Shown here: piece after piece, positions 2 through 28,853 of the stretch | How the letters are laid out: the number at the start of each line of letters is the position of its first letter | Numbering within the stretch: the stretch's first letter is position 1 | Origin: an uncultured Bacteroidota bacterium | GTDB taxonomy: Bacteria > Bacteroidota > Bacteroidia > Bacteroidales > WCHB1-69 | NCBI GenBank assembly: GCA_902786595.1 | Contig: CADADB010000001.1 | Coordinates: 191,172-255,171, forward strand | Reading direction: 5' to 3' | DNA: 64,000 nt | Notes under the pieces: model-generated | Databases searched by the model: none | The model's input: the letters and a program-made list of their open reading frames with translations, nothing else | Told to the model about the DNA's origin: nothing | Made by a program: the position numbers and the translations under genes

Positions 2-3000
2 CACCACATCACCTCGCAGAGCAAAATCGCCGCATACGCCAGCTACGGCTTCGACGCTTCGATAGAGGAGATCTATGGCCCGCTCACCATCGGGGCCCAA
101 CTCTATATCATCCCGGAGGAAATCCGTCTTGACTTGATGGCCTTGAAAGACTATTTCGAGCAGAACGGCATCACCCACGCCTTCATGACCACGCAGGTGG
201 CTTTCCAGTTCGCCTCCAACTTTGAATGCAAGTCGCTGGAGCGGCTCCTCACAGGTGGTGAAAAACTGCCGTCACTGGTGCCGCCCGCGAACTATATCGT
301 GGGCAATGGCTATGGTCCGTCCGAGTCCATCTGTTATGTGACCAACTACGATGTGACCGACCGGCGTAAGAACATCCCCGTCGGCAAGGCGCAGCAAAAC
401 GTGAAATGCTACATTGTTGACAAACAAGGGCATAGACTTCCCATCGGGGCACCCGGCGAACTTTGGGTGGCGGGTCCGCAGGTGACGCGCGGTTACCTCA
501 ACCGGCCGGAAAAGACCGCCGAGGTCTATCTGCCCAATCCGTTTGACCACGAGGAAAAATACGACCGGGTCTATCGTTCCGGCGACATTGTGCGCTACCT
601 GCCGTCGGGCGATGTCGAGTTTGTGGGGCGCAAGGACGGACAGGTGAAAATCCGTGGCTTCCGTGTCGAACTTAAGGAGGTGGAGAGCATCGTCCGGGAG
701 TTTCCCGGCATCAAAGACGCCACCGTGCAAGCTTTCGAGGAGGAAGGCGGCGGCAAGTTCATCGCCGCGTATGTCGTGGCGGATGAGCCAATTGACATCG
801 AGGCACTGAACAACTTCATCCTGGACGAGAAGCCGCCCTATATGGTTCCGGCCGTCACGATGCAGATTGAGGCAATTCCGCTCAACCAGAACCAGAAAGT
901 CAACAAGAAAGCCCTCCCGAAACCCGAGAAAAAAGCGGAAACCGTGGAGGAAAGCCATGTACCGATGAACATCCTCGAAGAGGAACTGCACGACATCGTG
1001 GCCGGCATCGTCGGCACGAAAGATTTCGGCGTGACCACCGTGCTCGGCTACGTTGGACTTACCTCCATCTCCGCCATCAAACTGGCCGTGCAACTCAACA
1101 AAAAGTACGGCGTCGCGGTGGATCCCAAAGAATTGGTCAAGAAAGGCAATATCCAATATATCGAAAATGATATTCTCAACCTTCTACTGAATGCAGCGGC
1201 GCATACACCGCAAGAATCGGAAGAACAACGTGCGGAATCCGCCACTCATCATGCGGAATCAAGCGATGTTCCGCTTTCTTACGCGCAGATGGGTGTGTAT
1301 GTCGAATGCATGAAGCAACCAACCTCCACCATCTACAACATCCCATCGTTGGTCGGTTTCCCCAAGGATACTGACACGGCGCGGCTGGCGCAGTCCGTTG
1401 AGACTATCATCAAGACGCATCCGCAGTTCAACGTGCATTTCGGCAGCGAAGGCAGCGACATCGTGCAAATCGTGGATGCCAACCAGCCTGTGGTTATCAC
1501 ACAGAGCAAGTTAAGCGAAGCGGAATTGGAGAAATACAAATTGGCGTTTGTTAAGCCGTTCAACCTGAAAAAAGGACCCTTGTACCGTATGGAAATCGTC
1601 ACGACGGAAAAGCGGGTTTACCTTTTGGCCGATGTCCATCACTTGATATTCGATGGCGGTTCTTTTGATTTGTTTGTCAACCAGTTATGCGATTTGATGA
1701 ACGGTCGTGAAATCGAATCCGAGGCCATCAGCTATGCCGATTTCGTCGCCGACGAGAAGGCGGCTGAGGAGAGTCCGAAACATGCCGAAGCCCAAGCCTT
1801 CTTCCAGGAACGTTTGGGCAAGTTGGAAGGCGTCACCGAGATTCCGTCCGATCTGACCAATCCCTTGGAGCAAGGTTCCGTCAGCGAGGTCTTCAGCCAA
1901 CTGGATTTCAACACGATAGAGGGCTTCTGCAAACAACACAACCTTTCGCCCGCGCACCTCACCTTGGCGGCGGTATTCTATGCGCTCTCGCGCTTCACCA
2001 ACAACGAGCAAATCTGCATCACCACCATCAGCAACGGCCGTTCCGACTTGCGCATCCGCAACACGGTGGGCATGTTTGTCAACACATTGGCTTTGAGTAC
2101 ACAGATTGGCGAGCAAAGCGTGACGGAGTTCCTGAATGAGACCAGCGCGAACTTTGACGAGACGCTTCGTCACGAGAACTACCCGTTCGCGCAAATCGCT
2201 GCGGATTATGATTTGTCAGCGGAGATAATGTTTGCCTATCAAATAGGGGTTATTGACAATTATTTGGTCAACGGACAAAAACTGGAGATAGAGCCTCTTG
2301 AACTGGACGTGCCGAAGTTCCGCGTTGCGTTCTACATTCAGGAGAAAGACGGCGTGCCGAGTGTTTGCATCGAATACGACAACGGCCGATATAGCGAAAG
2401 CCTGATGCAAAGTTTGGCGCAGTCGGTAAGCAATGCGGTTAACGCCTTCATCCGTCAGCCAGAAAAGGCATTGCTGCAGGTTTCCCTGCTGGATGCCGAA
2501 CAAACCGCTGTCCTCGACAGTTTCAACAAAACGGAAGTGCCTTACGACAACACGCAGAACATCGTCTCGCTGTTCCGTCGTCAAGCGGAGCAAACGCCTG
2601 ATAATTTGGCGGTTGTATATCACGAAAAGAAATATACCTATCGTGAGGTGGATGAGATTTCGGAACGTATTGCCGCTTATATCGCCTCGCAAGGTCTTGG
2701 AAAAGAAGATGTTGTGTCAGTGCTCATCCCGCGTTGCGAGTGGATGGCCATTGCTTCGCTTGGTGTGCTGAAAGCCGGTTGCGCCTATCAACCACTCGAC
2801 CCGAGTTATCCCGCTGAACGTCTTAACTTCATGATGAAAGATGCCAATGCCAAACTGCTGATTGTCAACGAGGAGTTGCGCGACATCGTGAACGAATATC
2901 AAGGCAAAGTGCTCTTGACCAAGGATATTGCGACATTGAAGACGGTAGAGACGTTTCATGAAACGTCTCTACTAACCCCGTCAAGCCTTTTCATTCTGCT

Positions 3001-5473
3001 CTACACTTCCGGTTCTACCGGCACGCCGAAAGGCTGTCAGCTCGAACACGGCAACCTCGTGGCCTTCTGTCATTGGTACCAGCGGCATTATGGCCTCACC
3101 GCCAACGACCGCGTGGCCGCCTACGCCAGCTACGGTTTCGACGCCTGCATGATGGACATGTACCCGGCGCTGACTTGCGGTGCCTGCGTCCATATCATTG
3201 GCGACGATATTCGCCTGAATCTGCCCGACTTGAACGAATACTTCAACACGCAGGGCATCACCCATTCTTTCATCACGACGCAGGTGGGCTACCAGTTCGC
3301 CTCCAATGTCGAGAACCATTCTTTGCGCTGTTTTGCCGTGGGCGGTGAGAAGCTGTCGGCTCTCAACCCGCCGACGAATTACAAGATGTACAACGGCTAC
3401 GGTCCCACGGAGTGTACCATCTTCACCACCAATTACTGGGTGAAGGATTACGAATTGGACATCCCGATCGGGAAACCGTTAGACAATCTGAAACTCTATA
3501 TCGTGGACAAGCAATTCAACAGACTGCCCATTGGAGCGGCCGGCGAATTGTGGGTGAGCGGAGCGCAAGTCAGTCGCGGCTATCTCAACCGGCCTGAAAA
3601 GACAGCGGAGACCTTCTTGAAGAATCCATTTAGCCAAGACTCTGGCTATGAGCGCATTTATCGCACTGGCGACATCGTGCGCTACCTCCCTGACGGCAAC
3701 ATCCAGTTTGTGGGTCGCAAGGACGGCCAGGTAAAGATTCGCGGTTTCCGCATCGAGTTGAAAGAGGTGGAGGCCGTCATCCGCGAGTTCCCAGGCATCA
3801 AGGATGTTACCGTGCAAGCTTTCGATTATGAGAACGGAGGCAAGTATATTGCCGCCTATATCGTCAGCGACAATAAAGTCGATGTCAAGGAGTTGAATGC
3901 CTTCATCGGCCAGCGGAAACCGCCGTATATGATTCCGGCGGCCACGATGCAGATTGACGCTATCCCGCTGAACCAGAACCAGAAGGTGAACCGCAAAGCG
4001 TTGCCAACGCCTGTCATGCAGGCCTCGGACCGCGAATACGTGGCGCCGGCCAACGAGACGGAACGCCAGTTCTGCAAAATCTTCAGCGACATTCTGTCTA
4101 TGGACAAGATCGGGACTACCGACAACTTCTTCGACTTGGGCGGCACCTCTCTCATGGTGACTCGCGTCATCCTCGAGGCCGACAAAATCGGGTATCACGT
4201 GGCCTACGGCGATGTCTTTGCCAACAACACCCCGCGGAAGCTCGCCGCGCTCGTTACGGGCGCAACCGTCCTCAACACGGAAGAGGAAGATGTGACTAAT
4301 TTTGATTATACCACCATCCACAACTTATTGAGCAACAACACACTGGATGGCTTCCGGAATGGTGAACGCCAGTCGTTGGGCAACGTGCTGCTCACTGGCG
4401 CAACGGGTTACTTAGGCATCCATGTGTTGCAGGAACTGATTTGTTCGGACGTGCCGAAGATTTACTGTCTGGTACGTGACAAGAATCTGGATGCCGCTGA
4501 ACACCGGCTGAAGACGCTGCTGTTTTACTACTTCGAATCAACCTACGATGAACTGTTCGGCAAACGCCTGAACATCGTGCTCGGCGATGTCACCAACGAC
4601 CTGACCGACCTTGTCAAAGCGAAGATTGACACGGTTTTCAACTGCGCGGCGGTGGTGAAACATTTTAGCGAAGGCACTGAGATTGAAGATGTTAACATTG
4701 GTGGTGCGCAACGCTGCGTTGATTTCTGTCTGAAATCCGGTGCGCGTTTGGTACACATTTCCACATACAGCACTGCCGGTATCAACGTCAACGACACCAT
4801 GTCTCCCGATTATGTCTTCAATGAGCAGCGGCTCTACGACGGACAATATCTTGGCAACCAGTACGTCCACTCCAAGTTCATAGCGGAGCGGGTAGTCTTG
4901 CAGGCCATTGCGGAAAACGGGCTGTCGGCCAAGGTCATCCGCGTCGGTAATCTCGCGGCACGTGCCAAAGACGGCGAGTTCCAGATCAACTTCTCCACGA
5001 ACGCCTTCATGGGCCGCATCAAGGTCTATAACATGTTGGGATGCTGTCCTTATTCCATTTATGAGAGCAAGGTGGAGTTCTCGCCCATTGATGAGGTCGC
5101 GCAGGCAATCATCCTGCTCAGCACCACGCCCAAGGAATGCTGTGTGTTCCACACCTACAACAACCACGCGCTGTTCCTCGGCGACGTGCTCAGCGGCCTC
5201 AACAACATCGGCACGGACATCCGCTTCGTGGAGGATGAGGAGTACAACACTGCGATGGAAAGTGCGGGCAATGATCCTCAGAAGGCCAAAACCCTTTCCA
5301 GTCTGCTCGCCTACAAGGATGCAGCCCACGGAAAGAAAGCCACCAGCGTACCCGTTGTCAACGCTTACACCACGCAGGTGCTCTATCGTCTGGGCTTCAA
5401 ATGGTCGCCCACCACGTGGGATTATGTGGACCAGATGTTGGGTGCCATCAGCGGGTTGGGGTTCTTTGATTAA
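2..5473 (+). CDS. Nonribosomal peptide synthetase with terminal reductase domain (5' end outside window)
   Basis: The frame is open from base 2, so the gene starts upstream; 1,823 codons are visible. Domain order: the C-terminal part of an adenylation domain (about 1-320; YGFDAS, YGPSES), a carrier domain (Ser354 in GLTSIS), a condensation domain (about 425-840; intact HHLIFDG at 546-552), a complete adenylation domain (about 858-1335; YTSGSTGTPKG, YGFDAC, YGPTEC), a second carrier (Ser1383 in LGGTSL) and a NAD(P)H-dependent thioester reductase (TGATGYLG at 1465-1472, Tyr1621/Lys1625). Both adenylation pockets keep the Asp that binds the amino group. A hand alignment to GrsA gives pocket codes near DAEFLGCY and DAMFAGIF, suggesting hydrophobic substrates (weak inference). 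Reductive release normally gives an aldehyde, alcohol or cyclic imine. A 28-bp palindromic repeat lies in frame at 2945-2972. A strong terminator follows the stop codon. Confidence 0.93.
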   Translation, partial: HHITSQSKIAAYASYGFDASIEEIYGPLTIGAQLYIIPEEIRLDLMALKDYFEQNGITHAFMTTQVAFQFASNFECKSLERLLTGGEKLPSLVPPANYIVGNGYGPSESICYVTNYDVTDRRKNIPVGKAQQNVKCYIVDKQGHRLPIGAPGELWVAGPQVTRGYLNRPEKTAEVYLPNPFDHEEKYDRVYRSGDIVRYLPSGDVEFVGRKDGQVKIRGFRVELKEVESIVREFPGIKDATVQAFEEEGGGKFIAAYVVADEPIDIEALNNFILDEKPPYMVPAVTMQIEAIPLNQNQKVNKKALPKPEKKAETVEESHVPMNILEEELHDIVAGIVGTKDFGVTTVLGYVGLTSISAIKLAVQLNKKYGVAVDPKELVKKGNIQYIENDILNLLLNAAAHTPQESEEQRAESATHHAESSDVPLSYAQMGVYVECMKQPTSTIYNIPSLVGFPKDTDTARLAQSVETIIKTHPQFNVHFGSEGSDIVQIVDANQPVVITQSKLSEAELEKYKLAFVKPFNLKKGPLYRMEIVTTEKRVYLLADVHHLIFDGGSFDLFVNQLCDLMNGREIESEAISYADFVADEKAAEESPKHAEAQAFFQERLGKLEGVTEIPSDLTNPLEQGSVSEVFSQLDFNTIEGFCKQHNLSPAHLTLAAVFYALSRFTNNEQICITTISNGRSDLRIRNTVGMFVNTLALSTQIGEQSVTEFLNETSANFDETLRHENYPFAQIAADYDLSAEIMFAYQIGVIDNYLVNGQKLEIEPLELDVPKFRVAFYIQEKDGVPSVCIEYDNGRYSESLMQSLAQSVSNAVNAFIRQPEKALLQVSLLDAEQTAVLDSFNKTEVPYDNTQNIVSLFRRQAEQTPDNLAVVYHEKKYTYREVDEISERIAAYIASQGLGKEDVVSVLIPRCEWMAIASLGVLKAGCAYQPLDPSYPAERLNFMMKDANAKLLIVNEELRDIVNEYQGKVLLTKDIATLKTVETFHETSLLTPSSLFILLYTSGSTGTPKGCQLEHGNLVAFCHWYQRHYGLTANDRVAAYASYGFDACMMDMYPALTCGACVHIIGDDIRLNLPDLNEYFNTQGITHSFITTQVGYQFASNVENHSLRCFAVGGEKLSALNPPTNYKMYNGYGPTECTIFTTNYWVKDYELDIPIGKPLDNLKLYIVDKQFNRLPIGAAGELWVSGAQVSRGYLNRPEKTAETFLKNPFSQDSGYERIYRTGDIVRYLPDGNIQFVGRKDGQVKIRGFRIELKEVEAVIREFPGIKDVTVQAFDYENGGKYIAAYIVSDNKVDVKELNAFIGQRKPPYMIPAATMQIDAIPLNQNQKVNRKALPTPVMQASDREYVAPANETERQFCKIFSDILSMDKIGTTDNFFDLGGTSLMVTRVILEADKIGYHVAYGDVFANNTPRKLAALVTGATVLNTEEEDVTNFDYTTIHNLLSNNTLDGFRNGERQSLGNVLLTGATGYLGIHVLQELICSDVPKIYCLVRDKNLDAAEHRLKTLLFYYFESTYDELFGKRLNIVLGDVTNDLTDLVKAKIDTVFNCAAVVKHFSEGTEIEDVNIGGAQRCVDFCLKSGARLVHISTYSTAGINVNDTMSPDYVFNEQRLYDGQYLGNQYVHSKFIAERVVLQAIAENGLSAKVIRVGNLAARAKDGEFQINFSTNAFMGRIKVYNMLGCCPYSIYESKVEFSPIDEVAQAIILLSTTPKECCVFHTYNNHALFLGDVLSGLNNIGTDIRFVEDEEYNTAMESAGNDPQKAKTLSSLLAYKDAAHGKKATSVPVVNAYTTQVLYRLGFKWSPTTWDYVDQMLGAISGLGFFD
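2945..2972. repeat. 28-bp palindrome, copy 1, inside the peptide synthetase gene
   Basis: A perfect palindrome whose half-site is GTAGAGACGTTTCA. It lies inside the second adenylation domain, about 8 codons before the YTSGSTG motif, and is read as [10 protein letters not shown]. Of the three reading frames of this palindrome, only the one used here lacks a stop codon. Identical copies are intergenic elsewhere in the window. Confidence 0.95.
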
Positions 5474-5520: not shown

Positions 5521-5544
5521 GATTTCGTTCAATTTACCGATGAA

Positions 5545-6075
5545 TTATTTCTTGACGATGTTGGAGATCTTGTAGGTGGTCACAATGCCGTTAAATTCCT
5601 CGAACACCAGTTCTATCGGAAGGTTGTCGGATTTGCGGTAGGTGATGATGATCTTGGAATAGCCGCGCGGGGCCGTCTTTTTCGCGCTCAACGTCACCAC
5701 CTTGTTGGCGCCCTTCTCGGTCACGGAGGTCTCGGCGTTGTTGTCGGAGGCCGCCTGCTTCCAATTGCCGTTGACACAGTTCATCAGGGTGTTGCGGTGG
5801 GTGCGCATGGCGGCGTTTTTCTCAGTGTCCACAACAGTCTTCTTGCCCTTGACACTCGTGCTCATCGTCTTGCCGTCGATGATGAAATAGTCGCCGGCCG
5901 GCTTGGTGTAGCGAAGCTCCATCTTGTCAGCGGAGAACAGTTTGAGATTTCCTTCTGCCTCGATGGTTTTGCCGGAGGCCTTGATGAATTTGGATTCGGT
6001 GAAACGGGCCTCCACTTTCTGGGCGGAAGCGGCAAATGCCAGCAGGGCAATGACAATGGTCAGTATTTTCTTCAT
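5545..6075 (-). CDS. LolA-like periplasmic lipid/lipoprotein carrier
   Basis: A 176-residue protein with a Sec signal peptide (hydrophobic 4-17, probable cut after SA at about 18). It is followed by a beta-rich domain typical of the LolA/LolB fold (antiperspirant-like order of short strands with little sequence identity, e.g. RFTESKFIKASGKTIEAEG and PAGDYFIIDGK). LolA proteins carry lipidated cargo across the periplasm. It lies downstream of the MMPL exporter gene on the same strand, 51 bp apart, with its own promoter at 6112-6120. LolA/MMPL pairs also occur in other bacterial lipid and pigment clusters. A carrier for a sphingolipid or lipopeptide is inferred from the neighbours; a general lipoprotein carrier is the alternative. 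Confidence 0.72.
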   Translation of the reverse strand: MKKILTIVIALLAFAASAQKVEARFTESKFIKASGKTIEAEGNLKLFSADKMELRYTKPAGDYFIIDGKTMSTSVKGKKTVVDTEKNAAMRTHRNTLMNCVNGNWKQAASDNNAETSVTEKGANKVVTLSAKKTAPRGYSKIIITYRKSDNLPIELVFEEFNGIVTTYKISNIVKK

Positions 6076-6111
6076 ATTTCGATAATAATTTTTGCTAGAC
6101 TGAAATGGGCG

Positions 6112-6120
6112 GCAAAAGTA
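6112..6120 (-). promoter_or_regulatory. Promoter -7 element of the LolA-like gene
   Basis: TACTTTTGC on the minus strand matches the Bacteroidota -7 consensus TAnnTTTGC and lies 37 bp before the start codon. Confidence 0.6.
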
Positions 6121-6126
6121 AAATTT

Positions 6127-8547
6127 TTATTTTTCCACTCTCCGCTTCATGAACGGCCATTTCATCAGCCAGCGGAACAACAGCGGCTGCAACGTGTAGG
6201 TGATCAGGATGGTGGAGATCATGCCAATCAACGCGCATTCGCCGATGGAAACGATGGTTGGGTGTTTGGCGAACAACATCGCCCCCATCACGACAATCAA
6301 CACCAAAGCCGAAAAGAAAATGGCCACTTTATGATACTCTAACAGACGACTCTCTTCCTGACGTTGCCCCTCGATCAGCCCTTTCATGACGAAAATGCTG
6401 TAATCCACGCCGATACCGAAGATAAACGTGGAGATTACAATGTTGATCATGTTGAATGACAACCCAAGGATGGCCATCCAGCCCTGCACCACATACCAAC
6501 TCAGGAACATCGGCAGGAAAGCGAGGATCGATATTAGAATGTTTCTGAAAGAAAGCAGCAGTACAACGAACACAAAGACGGACGAGATGATCAATGCCAT
6601 GTTGAAGTCCTTGTGAATCATGGAGATCAATCCTCCCGTGTAGTATAAGGGATCGACCACCACGGCGTGCGGCTTGGCGGCAACGCAGTCATCGACCTCT
6701 TTCAGTTTCTCTTTGGACAACTGTGGGGCGTTGAAAATCAAGAATTTGCCATCAGTTTCTTCGATGAAGTTGCAGAGAAGGCCGTCGGGGACGATACCCG
6801 ATTCGTATAGGTTTCCGGGTTCGTATTCCGCCTCGATCATGGCCTGGAAAGGCACGAAAATGTCAGTCGGGAGCTCGTTTTTCAAAGCCGCTGCCTTGAC
6901 GACTGACATCGCTTGCGCCACCTTTTCAGGGGTCCAGTAACGCTGCCAGGCGGCAATTCGGCGTTCCTGTTCCGCCTGCGACTGGAACAACAACGATGCT
7001 ACCGGCGTGTAGGAGAAGACGTCCCCAGCCCTGCGCAACGAATCCAAAGTGGTGGCAAGCACCATATTGGCCTCCAAGGCCTCGTCCAAATCCGCCGCGG
7101 TGACGGCATAATACCGTTGCATACCGCCCTGGTCGTTCTTCTCCTCATACAATTGTCGCGATTTCTGAAAATCTTCGCTCTCATAACCGATATGTTTCAG
7201 ATCATTGTCGAACTGAACCTTGCCTGAAAAGATGAACCCAATCAGAATGACAATACATAAAGCAATGATAATAACAGGGTTACGGTCGTATGGATAGTTG
7301 TTGATTTTGTTAATCAATTTGAATGCCTTCTTGCTGTGTTTGGCGTCTTTCACATTCAGGAAATGGGGCAGGAAGATTAACGCGAAGAAGGTGCTTCCGA
7401 GGAGCGCGAAGGTGGCGAACAGTCCGAAATCCTTCAACAGCTCGCTTTCGGTGAACATCAGTCCGAGGAATGCGCCGATGGTGGTGAGGCAGCCGAGGCA
7501 AACAGGGACGGCTTCATCCTTCAGCATCTGCTCCACATCGCCTACAAACCGTTGATGCACGATGATATGCAAGCAATAACTGAGTGCAACGCCCAAAATC
7601 ACGGCGCCCACCCCCAAGGCCATCAATGACATGCCGCCCTTGATCCAATACATGCAGGCCAACGCAAAGACGGTTCCATAAAGGATGGGCAGCACATTCT
7701 GCCAGATGATATTGTAACTCTTGAAACTGAGGCATAAATAGAGGAGAATCAGCACCAAAGAGATGCCGATGGTGAGGGCAATATCCCGTTTCATGGTGCT
7801 GGCGTTGTTGGCAGATTCCACCACGGCTCCATGCATCAGCACCTCCACATCCGGATGCATTTTGTTGAATTGCTGGATGCAGTCGCGGAGATGATTGATC
7901 AGTTTCCCGCCTTCCTGGGAGTTGAATGTTTGGAAATCTGGGGCGATAAAGATCAAAGCCACAGAACTGTCGGGACAGAACAGATGACCGTCGATGAGGG
8001 CGAAGCCCATACCGCTGGAGATGTCGGGCATCAGGCACTCTCGCAGTCCTAACGGGTCGGTGGAGACCAGCTCCGAGACCATGCCGGTTTCGTCGTTCAT
8101 GATCAACTCGTGATTGCGAGCCATGGTCTCGTCGGCGTGGGCGATGGCGGAATCGAATCGGGCGTAAAGGGTCGTGTCCACAAACGACGGCACGTGCATC
8201 ATGGCGTAATCGAGCGCGTTGAGCGCCATATCGGGCTCCAGACGGTAAAGCGTGTTGGCGATGCCCTCGTCGTTGGTGAGGATGGAGTCCATCAACTCAT
8301 CAACATAGCCGACCATCACTTCCGGCTCCGCCCCCGTCATCTGCATGAAGAGCTTGTCCTTGACTTTCACATTGCCGAACACCAAGTCACATTCTGACTT
8401 TTCAGACTTCGGCAAAAGTTTCATCAAATCTTCTTCAAATTTAGATTTTGTGGCGAAAAACGCAAAAACAACACTGCTTAAAACCAAAAGTGCATATAAA
8501 AGGAATTTATGCTGTGTGAAAAATCGGTAGATCTTTACGAAAACCAT
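6127..8547 (-). CDS. MMPL/RND-superfamily lipid exporter
   Basis: An 806-residue inner-membrane protein with the duplicated RND layout. There is one helix near 14-33, a large periplasmic domain to about 250, a block of helices from about 252 to 400, a second lone helix near 420-440, another periplasmic domain, and a second helix block from about 647 to 795. The motif FGIGVDYSIF in the last block matches the proton-relay helix of MMPL transporters. MMPL proteins export lipids and lipid conjugates (MmpL3 in mycobacteria is the best-known case). Its start faces the serine palmitoyltransferase gene across a shared 225-bp promoter region, and the LolA-like gene follows. Export of the sphingolipid or of the synthetase product is inferred. 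Confidence 0.85.
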   Translation of the reverse strand: MVFVKIYRFFTQHKFLLYALLVLSSVVFAFFATKSKFEEDLMKLLPKSEKSECDLVFGNVKVKDKLFMQMTGAEPEVMVGYVDELMDSILTNDEGIANTLYRLEPDMALNALDYAMMHVPSFVDTTLYARFDSAIAHADETMARNHELIMNDETGMVSELVSTDPLGLRECLMPDISSGMGFALIDGHLFCPDSSVALIFIAPDFQTFNSQEGGKLINHLRDCIQQFNKMHPDVEVLMHGAVVESANNASTMKRDIALTIGISLVLILLYLCLSFKSYNIIWQNVLPILYGTVFALACMYWIKGGMSLMALGVGAVILGVALSYCLHIIVHQRFVGDVEQMLKDEAVPVCLGCLTTIGAFLGLMFTESELLKDFGLFATFALLGSTFFALIFLPHFLNVKDAKHSKKAFKLINKINNYPYDRNPVIIIALCIVILIGFIFSGKVQFDNDLKHIGYESEDFQKSRQLYEEKNDQGGMQRYYAVTAADLDEALEANMVLATTLDSLRRAGDVFSYTPVASLLFQSQAEQERRIAAWQRYWTPEKVAQAMSVVKAAALKNELPTDIFVPFQAMIEAEYEPGNLYESGIVPDGLLCNFIEETDGKFLIFNAPQLSKEKLKEVDDCVAAKPHAVVVDPLYYTGGLISMIHKDFNMALIISSVFVFVVLLLSFRNILISILAFLPMFLSWYVVQGWMAILGLSFNMINIVISTFIFGIGVDYSIFVMKGLIEGQRQEESRLLEYHKVAIFFSALVLIVVMGAMLFAKHPTIVSIGECALIGMISTILITYTLQPLLFRWLMKWPFMKRRVEK

Positions 8548-8596
8548 ATTGAATTTACAATTTTTTTTATAAAAAAAGCCCGTTTTTTAAGCGGCG

Positions 8597-8605
8597 GCAA
8601 AAGTA
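8597..8605 (-). promoter_or_regulatory. Promoter -7 element of the MMPL exporter gene
   Basis: TACTTTTGC on the minus strand, 50 bp before the MMPL start codon. It faces a plus-strand -7 element only 12 bp away; the two lie in an imperfect inverted repeat (GCGGCAAAAGTAC against GTATTTTTGCCGC). Confidence 0.65.
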
Positions 8606-8617
8606 CAAAAATTTATG

Positions 8618-8626
8618 TATTTTTGC
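8618..8626 (+). promoter_or_regulatory. Promoter -7 element of the serine palmitoyltransferase operon
   Basis: TATTTTTGC on the plus strand matches the Bacteroidota -7 element. It is about 147 bp before the start codon, giving a long leader with no recognised riboswitch. Confidence 0.6.
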
Positions 8627-8772
8627 CGCTCGTCAAAAACAATTGATTTGATGCATTTTACAAATGTTAAAGAAACTTAAAATCAGAGAGATATGAAAAA
8701 TTATTATTCCGGTTTGTTGTTTTTGATTTTTCATAATTTGTTAGTTAAGTTTGCAGAATAATAGTGTCACCT

Positions 8773-9963
8773 ATGAGAAATCATCTTCTACAAAACAAAT
8801 GTGCGCAATACAGAGCGCCTCAAATCGCAAAAGCAAAGGGAATCTATCCATATTATAAAGAAATAGAGTCGGAACAGAGCACGGTGGTGAAGATTAAAGG
8901 TAAAGATGTGCTGATGTTCAGCTCGAACAGTTATCTGGGTCTTTCCAACGACCCGCGTCTGAAGGAGGCGGCCAAAGCCGCCATCGACAAATACGGCACG
9001 AGTTGCTCCGGCTCTCGTTTTCTCAACGGAACACTCGATATTCACGTGGAATTGGAGAATAAGTTGGCCCAATTGGTGGGCAAGGACGGTGCGTTGTGCT
9101 TCAGCACGGGCTTCCAAGTCAACTTGGGGGTGGTTTCCGCTTTGTGCGGCCGCAACGATTATCTGCTTCTCGACCGCCTCAACCACGCCTCCATCATTGA
9201 GGGCAGCCGTTTGGCGTTCGGCAAATCGTTGAAGTACGCCCACAACGACATGGAGAGTCTGGAGAAGTGCCTGCAACAATGCGAACCCGAATCCGTCAAG
9301 CTGATCGTGGCCGACGGTGTTTTCTCCATGGAAGGCGACATCGTCCCGTTGCCTGAAATGGTGGCCTTGGCGGACAAATACGATGCGGAAATCATGCTCG
9401 ACGATGCCCATTCCTTGGGTGTTTTGGGACATCAGGGCAGAGGCACTGCCGACCATTTTGGACTGACAGACAAGGTGGACCTCATCATGGGCACCTTCTC
9501 GAAGTCGTTCGGCTCGTTGGGCGGTTTCATCGCTTCCGATGCCGACACCATCAACTATCTGAAACACAATGCCCGCTCGCTGATTTTCAGTGCCAGTATG
9601 CCGCCGTCCAACGTGGCTGCGGTCAGTAAGGCCATCGATATCATGTTGGACGAGCCGGAGCGCATCCAGCATCTGTGGGACGTGAGCAACTACGCCCGCA
9701 ACCAGTTCAAGGAGCGCGGTTTCGACACGGGCCGCAGCGAGACACCCATCATCCCGCTGTTTGTACGGAATTCCGAGAAGGCCTTCTGGCTTTGCTCTCG
9801 CTTGCTGGAGGATGGTGTTTTCGTCACGCCGGTCATCGCGCCTGCGGTGCCCGAAAATGACGTGCTGATCCGTTTCGCCCTGATGGCCACGCACACCTTC
9901 GAGCAGGTTGACGAAGCTATCGACAAGATCACCAAAGCGTTCAAGGACGCGGAAATCCTATAA
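8773..9963 (+). CDS. spt: Serine palmitoyltransferase (alpha-oxoamine synthase)
   Basis: A PLP-dependent enzyme that condenses L-serine with a fatty-acyl thioester to 3-ketosphinganine, the first step of sphingolipid synthesis. The 396-residue length fits soluble bacterial SPT. The PLP lysine is Lys244 in GTFSKSFGS; the family motifs GSRFLNGT, DRLNHASI and DDAHSLGVLG are intact. The sequence resembles Bacteroides SPT more than BioF or KBL (MFSSNSYLGL, FSMEGDIVPLPE). ATG at 8773 was chosen; an in-frame GTG at 8764 is the alternative. The SDR gene follows after 3 bp, and the ACP, acyl-ACP synthetase and ceramide-synthase-like genes are nearby. A cysteate-using sulfonolipid enzyme cannot be excluded by eye. 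Confidence 0.92.
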   Translation: MRNHLLQNKCAQYRAPQIAKAKGIYPYYKEIESEQSTVVKIKGKDVLMFSSNSYLGLSNDPRLKEAAKAAIDKYGTSCSGSRFLNGTLDIHVELENKLAQLVGKDGALCFSTGFQVNLGVVSALCGRNDYLLLDRLNHASIIEGSRLAFGKSLKYAHNDMESLEKCLQQCEPESVKLIVADGVFSMEGDIVPLPEMVALADKYDAEIMLDDAHSLGVLGHQGRGTADHFGLTDKVDLIMGTFSKSFGSLGGFIASDADTINYLKHNARSLIFSASMPPSNVAAVSKAIDIMLDEPERIQHLWDVSNYARNQFKERGFDTGRSETPIIPLFVRNSEKAFWLCSRLLEDGVFVTPVIAPAVPENDVLIRFALMATHTFEQVDEAIDKITKAFKDAEIL

Positions 9964-9966
9964 GCC

Positions 9967-10761
9967 ATGGTTGTTCTGATCACAGGGGTTTCATCGGGTT
10001 TCGGTTTGGAGACTGCCCGGCTGCTTTCGCAAGAGGAGCACACTGTTTATGGTACCGTTCGTCGCGACGTGGAGCCGCTGCCAGGGGTGCATTATTTGAA
10101 AGTGGATGTACGCGACTGCGAAGCCGTGGAAAGTGCTGTGCAACAGATTGTTGAACAAGAAGGTCGTGTTGATGTGCTGGTCAACAATGCCGGCATGGGT
10201 ATCGGTGGGCCTGTGGAGTTTGCCACCGAAGAGGAAATCCGTGAGCAGATGGACGCCAACTTCATGGGGCTGGTACATTTCGTGACCGCCGTGTTGCCCA
10301 TAATGCGTAAGCAAGGAAAAGGCAAAATCATTGCGCTGAGCTCCATCGGTGGTGTGATGGGACTGCCGTTCCAAGGTTTCTACTCCGCCAGCAAGTTTGC
10401 CATCGAGGGCTATTGCGAAGCGTTGCGGCTTGAAACACAACAGTTTGGTGTTCAGGTTGTGGTGGTGCGCCCGGGCGATTTTTCGACGGGCTTCACGGCC
10501 AGTCGGAAAAAGACTGCCGACACCGAGGCGATGCAGGTCTATCGCACCTACGCCGAATCGATGGGAAAGGTGGAGCACGATGAAACTGGCGGTCTGAAAC
10601 CGCAGGTGTTAGCGTCTAAAATCAGCCAAATTATCCGTAAAAAGACCCCGCGTCACGGCTATGTGGTGGCCTCGCTTGAGCAACGCCTTTCGGTGTTCCT
10701 CAAACGCATCCTGCCGTCGCGCTGGTTCGCGAAAATCCTCGGAAGTTATTACAAATTGTAG
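9967..10761 (+). CDS. Short-chain dehydrogenase, probable 3-ketosphinganine reductase
   Basis: A classical 264-residue SDR. The cofactor motif TGVSSGFG is at 6-13, NNAGMG near 76-81, catalytic Tyr139 and Lys143 in YSASK, and the ending (SRWFAKILGSYYKL) is typical of Bacteroidota ketosphinganine reductases related to the B. theta enzyme. It should reduce 3-ketosphinganine to sphinganine with NADPH. It begins 3 bp after the SPT stop, so the two are co-translated. Its own TAG stop lies in a 28-bp palindrome (10758-10785) that also holds the stop of the convergent gene. Confidence 0.85.
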   Translation: MVVLITGVSSGFGLETARLLSQEEHTVYGTVRRDVEPLPGVHYLKVDVRDCEAVESAVQQIVEQEGRVDVLVNNAGMGIGGPVEFATEEEIREQMDANFMGLVHFVTAVLPIMRKQGKGKIIALSSIGGVMGLPFQGFYSASKFAIEGYCEALRLETQQFGVQVVVVRPGDFSTGFTASRKKTADTEAMQVYRTYAESMGKVEHDETGGLKPQVLASKISQIIRKKTPRHGYVVASLEQRLSVFLKRILPSRWFAKILGSYYKL

Positions 10762-10785
10762 AAACGCAGCTTGCTACGTCTCTAC
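10758..10785. repeat. 28-bp palindrome, copy 2, at the junction of two convergent genes
   Basis: Same outer arms as copy 1 (GTAGAAACG...CGTCTCTAC) but with a different centre, CAGCTTGCTA. It supplies TAG stop codons to both convergent genes: 10759-10761 for the SDR and 10782-10784 (minus strand) for the GNAT protein. It probably also acts as a shared terminator. Confidence 0.9.
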
Positions 10786-11897
10786 ATGTGACGTTTGTAC
10801 GCCCTTCTGCGCATAAACGGGTGGGTGGTGTATTCCCCGAACAACGACTGTACCTTGTAGTTTTCCTCCAATTGGGGGTTCATAATGATGGTGTCGATGC
10901 CCCGTTTGATGCAGTTTTCGTGTAGGTATTTGAACAGCAGCACGGGAATGCCACATTGCTGATACTCAGGCATCACGCCCATGATGAGCGCTTCCAAGGT
11001 GTCGTTCTTCTTCAGTGCCTTCAGAATGTTGATGAAGCCGAAGGGGAAAAGGCGTCCGTTGGACTTTTTCACCGCCTTGGAGAGCGAGGGCACGCAGAAG
11101 AGGAATCCTATGGGCTTGTCTTGGTCGTTGACGGCCACCGCCACGAAGTCTTTGTCCAAAATGGGCACGTAAGTGTTCAGGTAAGCGGCTATCTGTTTGT
11201 CAGTCAGCGGAGAGAAACCGTGCAGGGGCGCGAATGCCTCGTTGTACATGTGGAAAATCTCCATGCCGTAGCGTTTGCCCATGTCTTTCATGCTCTTGGG
11301 CTGCACCACGTGTACGTTGGATCTTTCTTCGATCAGGTGGGCGAACTGGAACATGGACGGGAGGGTAGGGCTCACGTCCAGCGTCCGTTGGGTCCAATCG
11401 ACCTCCTTGGTGAAGCCGAGCTTCTCCAACATGGGGCCGTAATAGGCATAGTTGTAGAGGCAGGTGAACGGGCTCAGATGCTCGAAACCTTCCACCAAAA
11501 GGCCTTCCTTGTCCATATCGGTGAATCCCCAGGGACCGCGCATATCGGTGCGTCCCCGTTGTCTGCCCCATTCGGCCACGGTGTCGATCAGCGCTTTCAG
11601 AACCGCCTCGTCTTCAATGAAGTCCAGCCAGCCGAAGCGGACGAGTTTCTGCTCGTCGTCGGCCTTGTGGTTGATGATGGCGGCCACGCGGCCCACAATC
11701 TCACTGCCGCGATAAGCCAGGAAGCAGTCTGCTTCGCAGAAATCGTAAGCCCCGTTCTTCTCGGGATTGAAAGTGTCGTATTCGTCACCCTCCAACGCGG
11801 GCACCCAATTCGCGCAGCCCTTATACAAATGAAGCGGAAAAGTCACAAACAGCTTCAGCTGCCTGCGACTTTCCACCTTAACAATATCAATATTCAT
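10782..11897 (-). CDS. GNAT-fold acyltransferase, probable bacterial ceramide synthase
   Basis: A 371-residue soluble protein. The N-terminal block (FPLHLYKGCANWVPAL, then VGRVAAIINH) and the GPWGFTDMDKEG segment define a family common in sphingolipid-making Bacteroidota. The C-terminal half has GNAT character (PIGFLFCVPSL, MGVMPEYQQCGIPVLLFKYL). In Caulobacter the bacterial ceramide synthase is a GNAT-fold protein encoded with SPT, ACP and an acyl-ACP synthetase, the same set as here, so N-acylation of sphinganine is the inferred role. It is the last gene of a minus-strand operon after the ACP gene (80-bp gap filled with heptamer repeats). A paralogue lies at 28850-29971. Confidence 0.72.
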   Translation of the reverse strand: MNIDIVKVESRRQLKLFVTFPLHLYKGCANWVPALEGDEYDTFNPEKNGAYDFCEADCFLAYRGSEIVGRVAAIINHKADDEQKLVRFGWLDFIEDEAVLKALIDTVAEWGRQRGRTDMRGPWGFTDMDKEGLLVEGFEHLSPFTCLYNYAYYGPMLEKLGFTKEVDWTQRTLDVSPTLPSMFQFAHLIEERSNVHVVQPKSMKDMGKRYGMEIFHMYNEAFAPLHGFSPLTDKQIAAYLNTYVPILDKDFVAVAVNDQDKPIGFLFCVPSLSKAVKKSNGRLFPFGFINILKALKKNDTLEALIMGVMPEYQQCGIPVLLFKYLHENCIKRGIDTIIMNPQLEENYKVQSLFGEYTTHPFMRRRAYKRHM

Positions 11898-11903
11898 ATA
11901 CTA

Positions 11904-11977
11904 AAATCAATAACCAAAATCAATAACCAAAGCCCAATAACCTAATTCAATAACCAATAACCCATAACCCATAACCA
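11904..11977. repeat. Degenerate tandem heptamer repeat
   Basis: About ten 7-bp units related to CAATAAC (variants CCATAAC, CAAAGCC) fill the gap between the ACP and GNAT genes. A similar unit recurs at 52735-52798 and 57412-57442. Confidence 0.8.
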
Positions 11978-12220
11978 TTAAATAGAGGCATGTTCGCTCA
12001 CATAGTCAATCACCTCTCCCACGGTCTCAAACTTTGGCGTGCCTTCGAACTTGAATCCGAACTTGTTCTCCACGGCGAGACTGAGGAGCAGGATGGTGAG
12101 GGAGTCGAGGCCGACGTCGCGGACGAGCTGTGAGTCTTCGGTCACGGAAGACAAATCCATGGAGGGTTTGATGAGAATCAGGATTTCTTTCAGTTCTTTA
12201 AAAATAGCTTCTCTTTCCAT
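11978..12220 (-). CDS. Acyl carrier protein
   Basis: An 80-residue acidic helical protein. The 4'-phosphopantetheine site is Ser40 in DVGLDSLTILLL. It differs from the housekeeping AcpP (no DSLD-TVEL pattern) and starts 4 bp after the acyl-ACP synthetase stop, so it is a dedicated carrier for this pathway. The inferred job is to hold the acyl chain made by the synthetase and present it to SPT or to the ceramide synthase, as in the Caulobacter ceramide locus. Confidence 0.92.
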   Translation of the reverse strand: MEREAIFKELKEILILIKPSMDLSSVTEDSQLVRDVGLDSLTILLLSLAVENKFGFKFEGTPKFETVGEVIDYVSEHASI

Positions 12221-12224
12221 TATT

Positions 12225-13721
12225 TTATTGATTACGTGAAACTTTCAGAGCGCCAGTACGTTTGAAGTCCTCTTTGCGCACAGTGATTTTGCTGACTTGG
12301 TGTGTGCCGGGCAGTGTGGCGTTGACCTTGCCGACGAGTTCTTTGAAGTAAGCTTCCACCTTTTCCCAGGGCTCGTTGCCGAATTCTTCCATACGCGGCA
12401 GGATTTCGATGGCAATCACCTTGCGGCCGTCCATCTCGTCCTCTTTCACAAGGCAGTCGCGGAGCTTGTTGTCCTTGTAGAACGGTTCTTCGATGCTTTC
12501 GGGGCTGATGTTTTCGCCGTTGGAGAGGATGATGAGGTTTTTGATGCGGCCCACGATGTACATGAAGCCGTCTTCGTCGAAGCGGACGAGGTCGCCGGTC
12601 TTGACCCAGCCGTCGGGCGTGAGGGTCTCGGCGGTCTTTTCGGGTTCGCCGTAATAGCCGAGGAACACGTTGTCGCCACGGAACCACAGCTCACCATCCA
12701 CGACCTTGGCTTCCTGTCCCGGATAGAGCTTGCCGACAGATGTGGGTCTGGTTTTCACGTCGATGTTGCCGGTGGTGAGGTTGGCGCCTTCGGTCATGCC
12801 GTAGCCGCCGAAGAGGTTGATGCCCAGTTCGTCAAACTCGCCGATGAGTTTCGGGGGTACGTTTGCTGCGCCGGAGATGATAACTTTCAGCTCGCCGCCA
12901 AGGAAGGGTTTGCCATACATCTTGACGAGTCCGAGGAGGATTTCGCAGATGCCGGGCACTGCGACGATCATGGTAGGTCTGATCACGGGCAGTTTGCCGA
13001 TGGTGTCTTTGGTGTTGCCTACGGAATACCAGGAAGCTCCTTTGTAGAGAACCGACATAGTGCTGTAAATCAAACCGAAAACGTGGCTGAGAGGCAGCAC
13101 GCAGGCGTAGCGGTGGCAACCGAGTTGGTGCCCCGGGGCGTAGAGGCCGTTGAGTGCACCGCGCATGATGGCACGGTGGGGGAGGATGGCGCCTTTGGGT
13201 GCGCCGGTGGTGCCGCCTGTGAAGAAGATGGCGGCGGGATCGTTCTTGTCAACCGTGGCGACCGGTGCGGTCTGGTCGGCGAGTTCCGTGATGGCGACGA
13301 CCTTGCACGGCGCCTCTTTCACAGATTCCATAAAGGCATTGCCGGCGGCCAGCACCTTCACGCCGAACTTCATGCAGCAGCCGACGATGGCTTGGGCAGG
13401 CAGCATTGCCGGCAGGTTGATGGCCACATAGCCGGCTGAGGTGACGGCGAGGAACATCTCCACGGCGTCTGTGGTGGAGTTGTCGAGGATGGCGACTTTG
13501 TCGCCTTTCTGCAGGCCGAAGCTGTTTAGGAGGGCGCGTTTGCGTGCAACCCTCTCGCAGACTTGGCTGTATGTATAAGTGTTCACCGTATCGGAAAGAC
13601 ACGGAAGATCAGACCATTTTTGTTCAATCCAAGTTACAAATTCCGGTATTGTGGGAATGTACTTCACCTGCGCGAGCTCCTCGGCAGGAAGCATTGACGG
13701 AAAATAATTGTTCTCTTGCAT
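12225..13721 (-). CDS. Acyl-ACP/acyl-CoA synthetase (AMP-forming)
   Basis: A 498-residue adenylate-forming enzyme with intact core motifs: FFTGGTTGAPKG, YGMTEG, GWVKTGD and a C-terminal Lys in GALKVSRNQ. It activates a fatty acid as acyl-AMP and loads it on a thiol; the ACP gene 4 bp downstream makes ACP the likely acceptor. The start at 13721 (MQENNYF) was chosen because the promoter -7 element at 13751-13759 lies across the longer possible start at 13754. It is the first gene of the operon synthetase-ACP-GNAT. Confidence 0.88.
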   Translation of the reverse strand: MQENNYFPSMLPAEELAQVKYIPTIPEFVTWIEQKWSDLPCLSDTVNTYTYSQVCERVARKRALLNSFGLQKGDKVAILDNSTTDAVEMFLAVTSAGYVAINLPAMLPAQAIVGCCMKFGVKVLAAGNAFMESVKEAPCKVVAITELADQTAPVATVDKNDPAAIFFTGGTTGAPKGAILPHRAIMRGALNGLYAPGHQLGCHRYACVLPLSHVFGLIYSTMSVLYKGASWYSVGNTKDTIGKLPVIRPTMIVAVPGICEILLGLVKMYGKPFLGGELKVIISGAANVPPKLIGEFDELGINLFGGYGMTEGANLTTGNIDVKTRPTSVGKLYPGQEAKVVDGELWFRGDNVFLGYYGEPEKTAETLTPDGWVKTGDLVRFDEDGFMYIVGRIKNLIILSNGENISPESIEEPFYKDNKLRDCLVKEDEMDGRKVIAIEILPRMEEFGNEPWEKVEAYFKELVGKVNATLPGTHQVSKITVRKEDFKRTGALKVSRNQ

Positions 13722-13750
13722 ATCTTTAACTATGTATTTTTTTTGAGGGC

Positions 13751-13759
13751 GCAAAGATA
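13751..13759 (-). promoter_or_regulatory. Promoter -7 element of the acyl-ACP synthetase operon
   Basis: TATCTTTGC on the minus strand, an exact match to TAnnTTTGC, 30 bp before the chosen start codon. Confidence 0.7.
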
Positions 13760-13829
13760 CACAAAATCTTAATTTGTGTTAATTTTGGGTTGAAAATGCG
13801 CAGGGAGGTTACTTACCTGGTTTTCAGTT

Positions 13830-14391: not shown

Positions 14392-14431
14392 GGATTTTTC
14401 GGAGAAGGAGAATGTGTTGCTTTAAACAAAC

Positions 14432-14459
14432 ATAGAGACGTTTCATGAAACGTCTCTAC
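14432..14459. repeat. 28-bp palindrome, copy 3, next to tRNA-Ser
   Basis: Same sequence as copy 1 except the first base (A for G). It lies 4 bp beyond the encoded CCA end of tRNA-Ser(UGA). Confidence 0.95.
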
Positions 14460-14463
14460 AACT

Positions 14464-28082: not shown

Positions 28083-28853
28083 TTAAAGTTCCCGTTTTAC
28101 GACGCGGGAGAGCAGGTGTATGCGCCATCGTTCGGGAATGATTTTGGTCAGAAAGTAGCTGAGCGGGTTGAGGATAATCTGCCGTTTGCCGCGGAGCATC
28201 CCGTCGATATATTTGCGGGCGATGTCGGAGGTGGATTTCAGGGTGGCGCGGCCGAAAAAGCCCTGTTTAGCGATGCGGGCACTCACTTCCGTGTTGGTGG
28301 CCATCGCGCCGGGTGCGGCAAGCGTGACCGACACTCCCGTGCCTTTCAGCTCCTCGCGCAAACTTTTCGAGAAGGCATGGACGTATGCTTTGGATGCAGG
28401 ATATACCGTCTTGTAGGCGGTGGCGGTGAATCCTGCCATACTGCCGACATTTAAGATGTGGGCGGGTGTGTTTTGTTGCAGATTTTGGAGCAGGGACTTT
28501 GTCAAAATGGTGGTGCACAGAATGTTGAGGTGGAGAATTCGCAGCAGGTAGTCCATGTCGGCGGTTTTGATGGCGCGACTGCCGCCCGTGCCCACGTTGT
28601 TGACGAGGATACTTATTGGGTATTCTTCCGCGATGGATTCCGCCCATTCCCGCACCGCCTTCTCGTCCGATAGGTCCACGATAAACGACTGGCAGTCAAC
28701 GGAATATTTGTTGACAATTTCTTCGCGCACGGCATGAACGGCATCAGTGGAGCTGACCAATAGGGTGGGGTAACCCCGCCGCGCCAACTCAAATGCAAGC
28801 TCCCGGCCCAAACCTTTGCTGGCTCCTGTAATTATGGCATATTTGTTGTTCAT
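28083..28853 (-). CDS. Short-chain dehydrogenase paired with a ceramide-synthase-like gene
   Basis: A 256-residue classical SDR: TGASKGLG at 9-16, NNVGTGG near 90, catalytic YPASK near 150. The C-terminal 30 residues are hydrophobic/basic (SYFLTKIIPERWRIHLLSR), as in membrane-associated steroid/ketosphinganine-type SDRs. Its start overlaps the stop of the upstream GNAT gene (ATGA), so the pair is translationally coupled. With the SPT-linked SDR it is one of two candidate lipid ketoreductases; the exact substrate is unknown. Confidence 0.82.
   Translation of the reverse strand: MNNKYAIITGASKGLGRELAFELARRGYPTLLVSSTDAVHAVREEIVNKYSVDCQSFIVDLSDEKAVREWAESIAEEYPISILVNNVGTGGSRAIKTADMDYLLRILHLNILCTTILTKSLLQNLQQNTPAHILNVGSMAGFTATAYKTVYPASKAYVHAFSKSLREELKGTGVSVTLAAPGAMATNTEVSARIAKQGFFGRATLKSTSDIARKYIDGMLRGKRQIILNPLSYFLTKIIPERWRIHLLSRVVKREL

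Follow-up and report, generated by a model that had tools for sequence, protein, structure and literature searches.

Organization and extent of the locus

The window, i.e. the whole stretch of DNA that was analyzed (64,000 nucleotides), carries linked genes encoding a predicted serine palmitoyltransferase (SPT), an SDR, a GNAT, an ACP and an acyl ligase, with the genes of two putative transport proteins on one side. An ORF check of the window found the five linked genes within 5.2 kb, where the initial annotation had placed them:

5545-6075, minus strand: LolA-like periplasmic lipid carrier, included only in larger copies of the cassette
6127-8547, minus strand: MMPL-family lipid transporter, divergent from SPT
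8773-9963, plus strand: SPT, with an ATG at 8773 (mechanical ORF start: the GTG at 8764)
9967-10761, plus strand: SDR, 3 nt after SPT
10757-10786, no strand assigned: hairpin of 13 pairs at the SDR/GNAT 3' junction, member of a dispersed palindrome
10782-11897, minus strand: GNAT, 80 nt from ACP
11978-12220, minus strand: ACP, 4 nt from the ligase
12225-13721, minus strand: ligase, with its start ATG at 13719-13721 (the query used in searches was 12225-13718, the first Met being excluded)

The SPT-SDR and ligase-ACP-GNAT genes form two facing units with 20 nt separating their 3' ends. It had been proposed that two facing operons end in a shared palindrome: the facing units and the 13-pair hairpin are indeed present, but the arms of the latter (GTAGAGACG/CGTCTCTAC) are found at nine places within the window, and a palindrome unique to the ceramide locus was therefore rejected. 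At this junction, hairpins of a related kind were seen in at least seven copies related to the window (L150, L152, L153, L157, L159, L160 and L162) and are absent from some others (e.g. L154, L155, L164 and L200). Since a terminator scan of the whole window performed no better than chance (eight found, 9.9 expected), promoter and terminator scans were drawn on for this hairpin only, which is possibly a two-way terminator.

The cassette unit exceeds 8548-13721, the interval in which the initial annotation had considered the locus complete: all five genes do lie there, but the MMPL and LolA genes belong to a larger form. The shared block including both of them (about 5543-13787) was found in 10 of the 19 other copies; two copies have MMPL without LolA and seven have neither in the block. 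It starts at 5543/5546 in L297, L298, L299, L151, L157, L158, L161 and L163. The MMPL protein matches PF03176 (72.4 bits, cut-off 20.5), its best NCBIfam being HpnN (TIGR03480; 141.5 bits, below the cut-off of 751.85), and the LolA-like protein matches PF03548 (29.8 bits, cut-off 23.6), its best NCBIfam being LolA2_flexi (57.7 bits, below the cut-off of 125). The locus thus resembles systems with HpnN-type MMPL and LolA-like carriers in having both families beside lipid genes, but differs in that the window proteins remain under the cut-offs of the named NCBIfams. These two proteins may export the ceramide product. The initial annotation had overlooked this transport pair; it had also missed that the block was horizontally transferred and that the genome encodes SulA.

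Identity of the encoded proteins

The AOS encoded in the window is predicted to be an SPT of the Bacteroidota type. It passes the cut-off of NF047600, the NCBIfam of Bacteroidota SPTs (661.1 bits, cut-off 640), whereas the SulA encoded elsewhere in its own genome reaches only 267.7 bits, and it scores 539.6 bits with the SPT 3a2b versus 246-264 bits with cysteate acyltransferases. According to PMC9304779, Lys281 of SulA separates this cysteate-using enzyme from SPT, which has an alanine; the window protein has the alanine (FSASM, aligned to FSASM of 3a2b), SulA having YAKSL. It does not group with SulA, and the candidate identification as SulA was rejected.

The product of 9967-10761 is a classical SDR and probably a KdsR-like 3-ketosphinganine reductase. 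Its best NCBIfam is NF049977, which we take to be the family of BT_0972; its score (327.7 bits) is under the cut-off of 400, which is reached in only one of the 149 genomes of the order. Its best Pfam is adh_short, not the epimerase architecture, and BLASTP gave no significant match with the epimerase-type reductase of E. coli BL21 (CerR/epi).

The product of 10782-11897 is a candidate ceramide synthase of the tandem-GNAT N-acyltransferase type, linkage and co-occurrence suggesting that it N-acylates a sphingoid base. It shares a family with the bacterial ceramide synthases, being homologous over its full length with YghO, which in E. coli corresponds to the ceramide synthase of Caulobacter (28% over 385 columns, 143 bits). 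Its AF2 model (pLDDT 87.7) matched GNATs in Foldseek at E 1e-14 to 1e-13, among them the tandem GNATs 2wpw and 7q3a, and no sequence relatives were found in the PDB at E 0.01. This family is wider than ceramide synthesis, since relatives occur in 124 of the 149 genomes of the order versus 49 for SPT.

The product of 12225-13721 is an AMP-forming acyl ligase (PF00501, 197.8 bits; no PDB sequence relatives at E 1e-40) and probably an acyl-ACP synthetase, which would act on the dedicated ACP (PF00550, 25.3 bits, cut-off 20.8). Over the loci of the best 80 of 535 ligase relatives, the serine of the ACP motif GLDSL is conserved at the aligned position in all 80, whereas a strict motif pattern matched only 60, so that this pattern is too strict. 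BLASTP gave no alignment between the window ACP and E. coli AcpR (23% in a multiple alignment), the ligase shares 25% identity with E. coli AasR in the AMP-binding core only, and the NCBIfam fatty acyl-AMP ligase family of AasR is missing from the 25 best families of the window ligase.

Comparison with known systems

The "Caulobacter composition" claimed by the initial annotation is only analogous. Compared with the five-gene set of E. coli BL21 (aasR, acpR, spt, epi/cerR and aca/bCerS), which was used as a stand-in for Caulobacter, the window has five matching functions in one place and homologous SPT (35%) and N-acyltransferase; however, its reductase is of a different SDR type and its ACP and ligase lack a sequence relation with AcpR/AasR beyond the AMP-binding core. 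The looser linkage that the initial annotation gave for Bacteroides agrees with what PMC9278070 and PMC11334938 report for known Bacteroidota. Bacteroides thetaiotaomicron shares the Bacteroidota-type SPT and probably the kind of reductase (BT_0972), but its SPT and reductase genes (BT_0870 and BT_0972) are unclustered (PMC9278070), while five to seven genes are contiguous here. The sulfonolipid path (SulA/CapB) is similar in its AOS, N-acylation and acyl-ACP chemistry, and SulA is present in the same genome; it differs in that the AOS of the window has the SPT alanine and a much higher score with SPT (540 bits) than with cysteate acyltransferases. The initial annotation had named two outcomes that would refute it, a GNAT unrelated to bacterial ceramide synthases and an SPT grouping with the sulfonolipid enzymes, and neither was obtained. 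Overall, a ceramide-type locus, as first proposed, is the best reading given the YghO-like GNAT and the SPT-like AOS, and this block of uncultured gut bacteria very probably makes ceramide-type lipids with its own fatty-acid carrier.

Horizontal transfer of the block

Comparison with MutL indicates that the ceramide block has been passed between species by horizontal transfer. Of the 14 further carriers in the family, six encode an SPT and a ligase with 90-97% identity to the window proteins, while their MutL is at 52-69%. It is very improbable that misbinned contigs or slow evolution produced this pattern. Every genome used is a draft or metagenome assembly and MutL is a single control gene; however, in G247, MutL (59%) lies on one contig with SPT (96%) and ligase (94%), less than 7 kb apart, and in L157, MutL (63%) is next to a 92-95% identical cassette on a 475-kb contig. 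In G184, where MutL is at 89%, ligase is at 88% and GNAT at 89%. Furthermore, several genomes with different flanks share block ends near 5543 and 13787.

Linkage, co-occurrence and proposed pathway

SPT, ligase and the GNAT orthologue are present in an identical set of 17 of the 40 genomes of the genus. Therefore, their clustering is not due to chance, and a chance neighbourhood was rejected. Among 58 genomes of the family, 15 have SPT and ligase, two SPT only, three ligase only and 38 neither.

Confirmed relatives of the ligase numbered 535; the gene neighbours were counted by tblastn over the best 80 of them, a sample of the nearest ones. In these best 80, (i) ACP adjoins the ligase in all loci, (ii) GNAT lies within 1.5 kb of ligase-ACP in 67, in four arrangements, and (iii) SPT lies within 6 kb in only 11. 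Unlike these tblastn counts, neighbourhood rows obtained by picking the longest ORFs are lower bounds, because some genes were masked under longer antisense ORFs (e.g. SPT of L093, several ACPs, GNAT of L150). Distant paralogues account for two of the 67 GNAT neighbours: that of L212 (37%), whose true partner is PlsC, and that of L257 (35%), which has a 52% GNAT fragment on the opposite side, at a contig end. With L212 set aside, the best 80 comprise 66 loci with GNAT, seven with PlsC and seven with neither. The occurrence of the ligase-ACP pair with a PlsC-type acyltransferase as an alternative partner suggests a reusable acyl-supply module. In the GNAT tree, which omits GNATs with fewer than 330 aligned residues and L197, L198, L199 and L218 (the genomes of L157, L159, L160 and L153), 66 of the 68 ligase-adjacent GNATs fall in a single clade of 72 rows (100/100), outside which lie the SPT-adjacent GNATs of other Bacteroidales.

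SPT is present in 35 of the 43 genomes where the partner of the ligase is GNAT, versus one of the six where it is PlsC; this comparison covers 50 ligase genomes, of which 48 come from the 69 whose block lacks SPT and two (L200 and L208) from the 11 whose block has it, L254 being unclassed and G217, with its SPT in two pieces, being scored as present. Fisher values calculated in the analysis take no account of relatedness. In G003, ligase-ACP-GNAT and SPT-SDR are on different contigs.

We consider it rather likely that the horizontally transferred block at 5545-13721 is a self-contained cassette for sphingolipids in which acyl-ACP goes to the GNAT and the product is then exported. SPT would condense serine with an acyl thioester into 3-ketosphinganine, and a cytoplasmic reduction by the SDR would yield sphinganine. 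The ligase would load a fatty acid on the dedicated ACP, from which the tandem-GNAT ceramide synthase would transfer the acyl chain to sphinganine to form dihydroceramide. Where the cassette is of the larger form, MMPL and the LolA-like carrier would bring the lipid towards the outer membrane. The families, linkage, co-occurrence and transfer come from the sequences; we infer what the substrates are, that the GNAT receives the acyl-ACP, in which order the steps proceed and that the product is exported. The ACP and ligase are tied to the N-acyl step because the ligase-ACP pair of the best 80 relatives adjoins GNAT far more often than SPT, and the ceramide synthase thus seems to be the enzyme supplied by the dedicated carrier protein. 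The initial annotation had proposed acyl delivery on ACP; this is kept in a modified form, as gene linkage points here to the N-acyltransferase. According to PMC9386255, SPT of Caulobacter is fed by acyl-AcpR, and Rhodobacteria have an acpR-spt operon, whereas the ACP-ligase of the window is linked to the N-acyltransferase.

The Caulobacter precedent (AcpR/AasR) favors a different supply route, in which the ligase makes acyl-ACP for use by SPT, either alone or together with GNAT; so do the preference of Alistipes SulA for acyl-ACP (PMC9304779), the inseparability of ligase, SPT and GNAT within the genus, and a fused ligase-ACP-AOS protein in three genomes devoid of SPT. We regard it as unlikely given the neighbour counts above, the lack of a BLAST match with AcpR, and the absence of ligase (at E 1e-60) from 47 of the 49 SPT genomes of the order sample. 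One genome, G126, has SPT and a cassette-clade GNAT but no ligase at this threshold.

Returning to the proposed sphingolipid cassette as a whole, several points run against it: the SDR score under the KdsR cut-off, the ligase-ACP-GNAT genomes without SPT (8/43), G126, the wide GNAT family, the SPT-adjacent GNATs outside the clade and the copies without MMPL and LolA (7/19). A broader proposal is put forward tentatively: gut Bacteroidales would have evolved a private ACP and ligase, apart from AcpR/AasR, that serve ceramide synthase and not SPT, within a mobile make-and-export cassette, comprising also SPT, a KdsR-type reductase and the MMPL/LolA pair for export, that is gained and lost by species of a lineage encoding SulA, the first enzyme of sulfonolipid synthesis.

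The all-or-none co-occurrence, the horizontal transfer of the block and the association of ligase-ACP with an N-acyltransferase are new: no earlier account of these features was found in the open-licence literature, nor, in the portions available, a description of the source of the N-acyl chain in the Bacteroidota path. Bacteroidota sphingolipids reach the animal host, yet the species investigated to date have the genes of this path at scattered sites. This compact transferable cassette provides a portable set to reconstitute the path, predicts that ceramide production varies among close rumen relatives and makes a ceramide synthase with its own carrier protein a testable idea.

Finally, it is improbable that GNAT and ligase-ACP serve to acylate a different amine, for example the capnine of sulfonolipid synthesis, with a lineage-specific adjacency to SPT-SDR. 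The SulA gene of the genome would fit this, as would the mostly non-adjacent SPT in the best 80 loci and the ligase-GNAT genomes without SPT, including G218, which has an 80% relative of SulA. However, the three genes coincide in the genus and SPT accompanies most ligase-GNAT pairs. Moreover, 28083-29971 encodes a separate paralogue of the GNAT together with an SDR of its own; this paralogue, also present in G120, a member of the genus without SPT, is a better candidate for another path than the cassette GNAT.

Organization of the locus and assignment of its enzymes

Judged from its gene content, the block is a coherent predicted ceramide cassette, whose five ORFs are present as the initial annotation described them:

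8773-9963, + strand, SPT
9967-10761, + strand, SDR, 3 nt after SPT
10782-11897, - strand, GNAT
11978-12220, - strand, ACP
12225-13721, - strand, AMP-forming ligase

The two facing sets that had been proposed, SPT-SDR and ligase-ACP-GNAT, were also recovered, with 3′ ends 20 nt apart. As for the palindrome said to be shared by these sets, a 13-pair hairpin does span the junction (at least seven related copies carry such a hairpin there), but the palindrome is dispersed and some copies lack it at this place. Its arms, GTAGAGACG / CGTCTCTAC, were located by sequence at nine places of the window, often close to gene ends:

2945, 10757-10786, 14431-14460, 17999, 22405, 32359, 32408, 37790 and 59417, dispersed palindrome

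The window also carries a two-module NRPS with a C-terminal thioester reductase (134-5473, + strand), probably cut by the window start, which is nearest to aureusimine AusA (942.6 bits, below the cut-off of 2500). The own assembly comprises 40 contigs (2.84 Mb).

The SPT exceeds the NCBIfam cut-off for Bacteroidota SPTs (661.1 versus 640 bits), its nearest solved relative is the Sphingobacterium SPT 3a2b (539.6 bits, compared to 263.8 for 28eh and 246.3 for 7u7h, both cysteate acyltransferases) and it carries an alanine (FSASM) at the position of SulA Lys281, described as distinguishing SulA from SPT (PMC9304779). All this argues against the cysteate-using type that the initial annotation had considered. 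A second AOS of the own genome is SulA-like (576 bits to 7u7h, YAKSLP motif) and has the diagnostic lysine; therefore, this genome encodes both SPT and SulA. The gene adjoining this SulA scores below every NCBIfam cut-off, cysteate synthase included. On contig C3 (locus L006), these genes are:

1366-2628, SulA-like AOS with the diagnostic lysine
2705-3931, threonine-synthase-like gene

The GNAT aligns over its length with E. coli YghO (28% identity, 143 bits), reported as the counterpart of Caulobacter CC_1154 (PMC9386255), and thus matches the bacterial ceramide synthase family, as had been anticipated. Its AF2 model (pLDDT 87.7) retrieves GNATs, including tandem ones. This family is wide, with matches in 124 of the 149 order genomes (SPT at ≥416 bits in 49), and membership in it is by itself no proof of ceramide synthesis. 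The window contains an adjoining second SDR (28083-28853, - strand) and second YghO-like GNAT (28850-29971, - strand; 36% identity to the first). This pair, similar to one found in G120, a genus genome devoid of SPT, is a candidate for the ketoreduction and N-acylation steps of a different aminolipid pathway, perhaps that of a sulfonolipid.

The best NCBIfam model for the cassette SDR is 3-ketodihydrosphingosine reductase (327.7 bits, below the cut-off of 400, which one of the 149 order genomes passes); this model has 11 matches in the own genome, and the window SDR is the only one of them among the matches listed. The SDR showed no similarity to the epimerase-type reductase of E. coli. The glycine motif of the SDR starts at residue 6, too close to the N-terminus for a signal peptide to precede it; the ceramide reductase of Caulobacter, by contrast, is described as periplasmic (PMC11087976). 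This points to reduction before N-acylation as the likelier order.

The ACP gave no BLAST alignment with E. coli AcpR (23% identity in a multiple alignment); between the ligase and E. coli AasR, identity is 25%, across the AMP-binding core. Tested for membership, the pair did not fall within AcpR/AasR, but may work like them. With the E. coli BL21 proteins as stand-ins, the Caulobacter composition initially attributed to the block is supported for SPT and the YghO-like GNAT but neither for the reductase, unlike the epimerase type, nor for the ACP and ligase. Acyl-AcpR is reported as the preferred SPT substrate; of the Rhodobacteria compared in that study, C. crescentus and E. coli BL21 alone have all five genes clustered (PMC9386255).

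SPT, bCerS and CerR are described as not close together in sphingolipid-producing Bacteroidota (PMC11334938) and BT_0972 as not clustered with SPT (PMC9278070), in agreement with the looser linkage previously noted for Bacteroides. In the order sample, SPT-SDR pairs were seen, and eight loci from other Bacteroidales families (L094, L106, L110, L120, L126, L130, L131 and L133) carry clusters of SPT, GNAT and an extended, CerR-like SDR, which resemble the Caulobacter composition more closely than the window block does. The open-licence literature searched yielded no description of a ceramide synthase with an ACP and ligase dedicated to it.

Partner of the ACP

The best 80 of 535 relatives confirmed in a ligase alignment scan were kept as loci; the named contigs among them are metagenome-derived, for the most part from ruminant gut and labelled Bacteroidales or Bacteroidia, and one of the 80 bears the label Ruminococcus. 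All of these best 80 loci have an ACP with its phosphopantetheine serine next to the ligase. In 67, a GNAT gene is found no more than 1.5 kb away, either co-oriented with the ligase (36 downstream, seven upstream) or in the opposite orientation (17 divergent, seven convergent); SPT occurs at up to 6 kb from the ligase in 11. The 13 loci without a GNAT neighbour have a PlsC-type acyltransferase (n = 6) or neither enzyme (n = 7). Two of the 67 GNATs are distant paralogues (L212 and L257). In the GNAT tree, 66 of 68 ligase-adjacent rows fall in one clade of 72 rows (support 100/100); of its remaining six rows, four belong to ligase loci that ORF picking had overlooked, one to a contig end (L149) and one to G126, a genome without such a ligase. 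SPT-adjacent GNATs of other Bacteroidales fall outside it, in several places. In G003, ligase-ACP and a divergent GNAT share one contig and SPT-SDR lies on another.

A search of 50 ligase genomes found SPT in 36: in 35 of the 43 whose ligase has GNAT as partner, in one of the six with a PlsC partner, which also holds a second, complete locus (L275), and not in the single unclassed genome (Fisher p 0.003). The two order-sample genomes in which a PlsC-type gene neighbours the ligase (G018 and G081) have neither SPT nor a window-type GNAT. The conserved unit is thus ligase-ACP-acyltransferase, with which SPT goes when the partner is GNAT; therefore, the acyl-ACP most likely feeds GNAT. Against this reading count G126, which has SPT and the ligase-clade GNAT without ligase, and the eight of 43 GNAT-partner genomes devoid of SPT. 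Three of these eight (G208, G212 and G216) encode a protein of about 1,110-1,160 residues in which ligase, ACP and AOS are fused (domains by Pfam in two), G218 has a SulA relative and the other four have neither explanation. The fused proteins are:

L285, 1086-4409, fused AMP-ligase, ACP and AOS
L286, 3721-7095, fused AMP-ligase, ACP and AOS
L287, 377-3862, fused AMP-ligase, ACP and AOS

Distribution and boundaries of the cassette

In the genus, SPT, ligase and a GNAT orthologue (≥89%) occur in the same 17 of 40 genomes; among the 23 others, a distant GNAT paralogue is all that 17 have, and six have none at E 1e-20. The 58 family genomes (≥90% complete) include 15 with SPT and ligase, two with SPT only (divergent, 66% and 58%), three with ligase only and 38 with neither (Fisher p 3e-9, kinship ignored). 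In the two ligase-only genomes inspected (G252 and G255), a PlsC-type gene adjoins ligase and ACP. The same kind of ligase lies beside a PlsC-type acyltransferase (PF01553) in L182 (7985-10122), L183 (8445-10865), L300 and L301, with ACP seen in the last three; their genomes lack SPT at the thresholds used.

Identities to the window were compared in the 14 other family genomes with SPT and ligase, and indicate that the cassette has been transferred horizontally. In G153, G162, G181, G245, G247 and G248, SPT (93-96%) and ligase (90-97%) are far closer to the window than MutL, the control gene (only 57-69%; two fragments of 69 and 52% in G181). In G247, MutL (59%) and the cassette share one contig. 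The eight others have roughly matching MutL (89-99%) and cassette (88-100%).

Nucleotide homology starts at about 5543 and stops at about 13787 in several genomes with different flanks. The 19 other ligase-bearing copies (genus and g139) carry LolA and MMPL (n = 10), MMPL only (n = 2) or neither (n = 7), and in L202, L204, L213 and L274 the ligase likewise has an MMPL or LolA relative nearby. G181 has two partial cassettes (L151 and L165): one lacks SDR, and the other has SPT, SDR and a GNAT split in two ORFs, but neither ligase nor ACP within the stretch retrieved.
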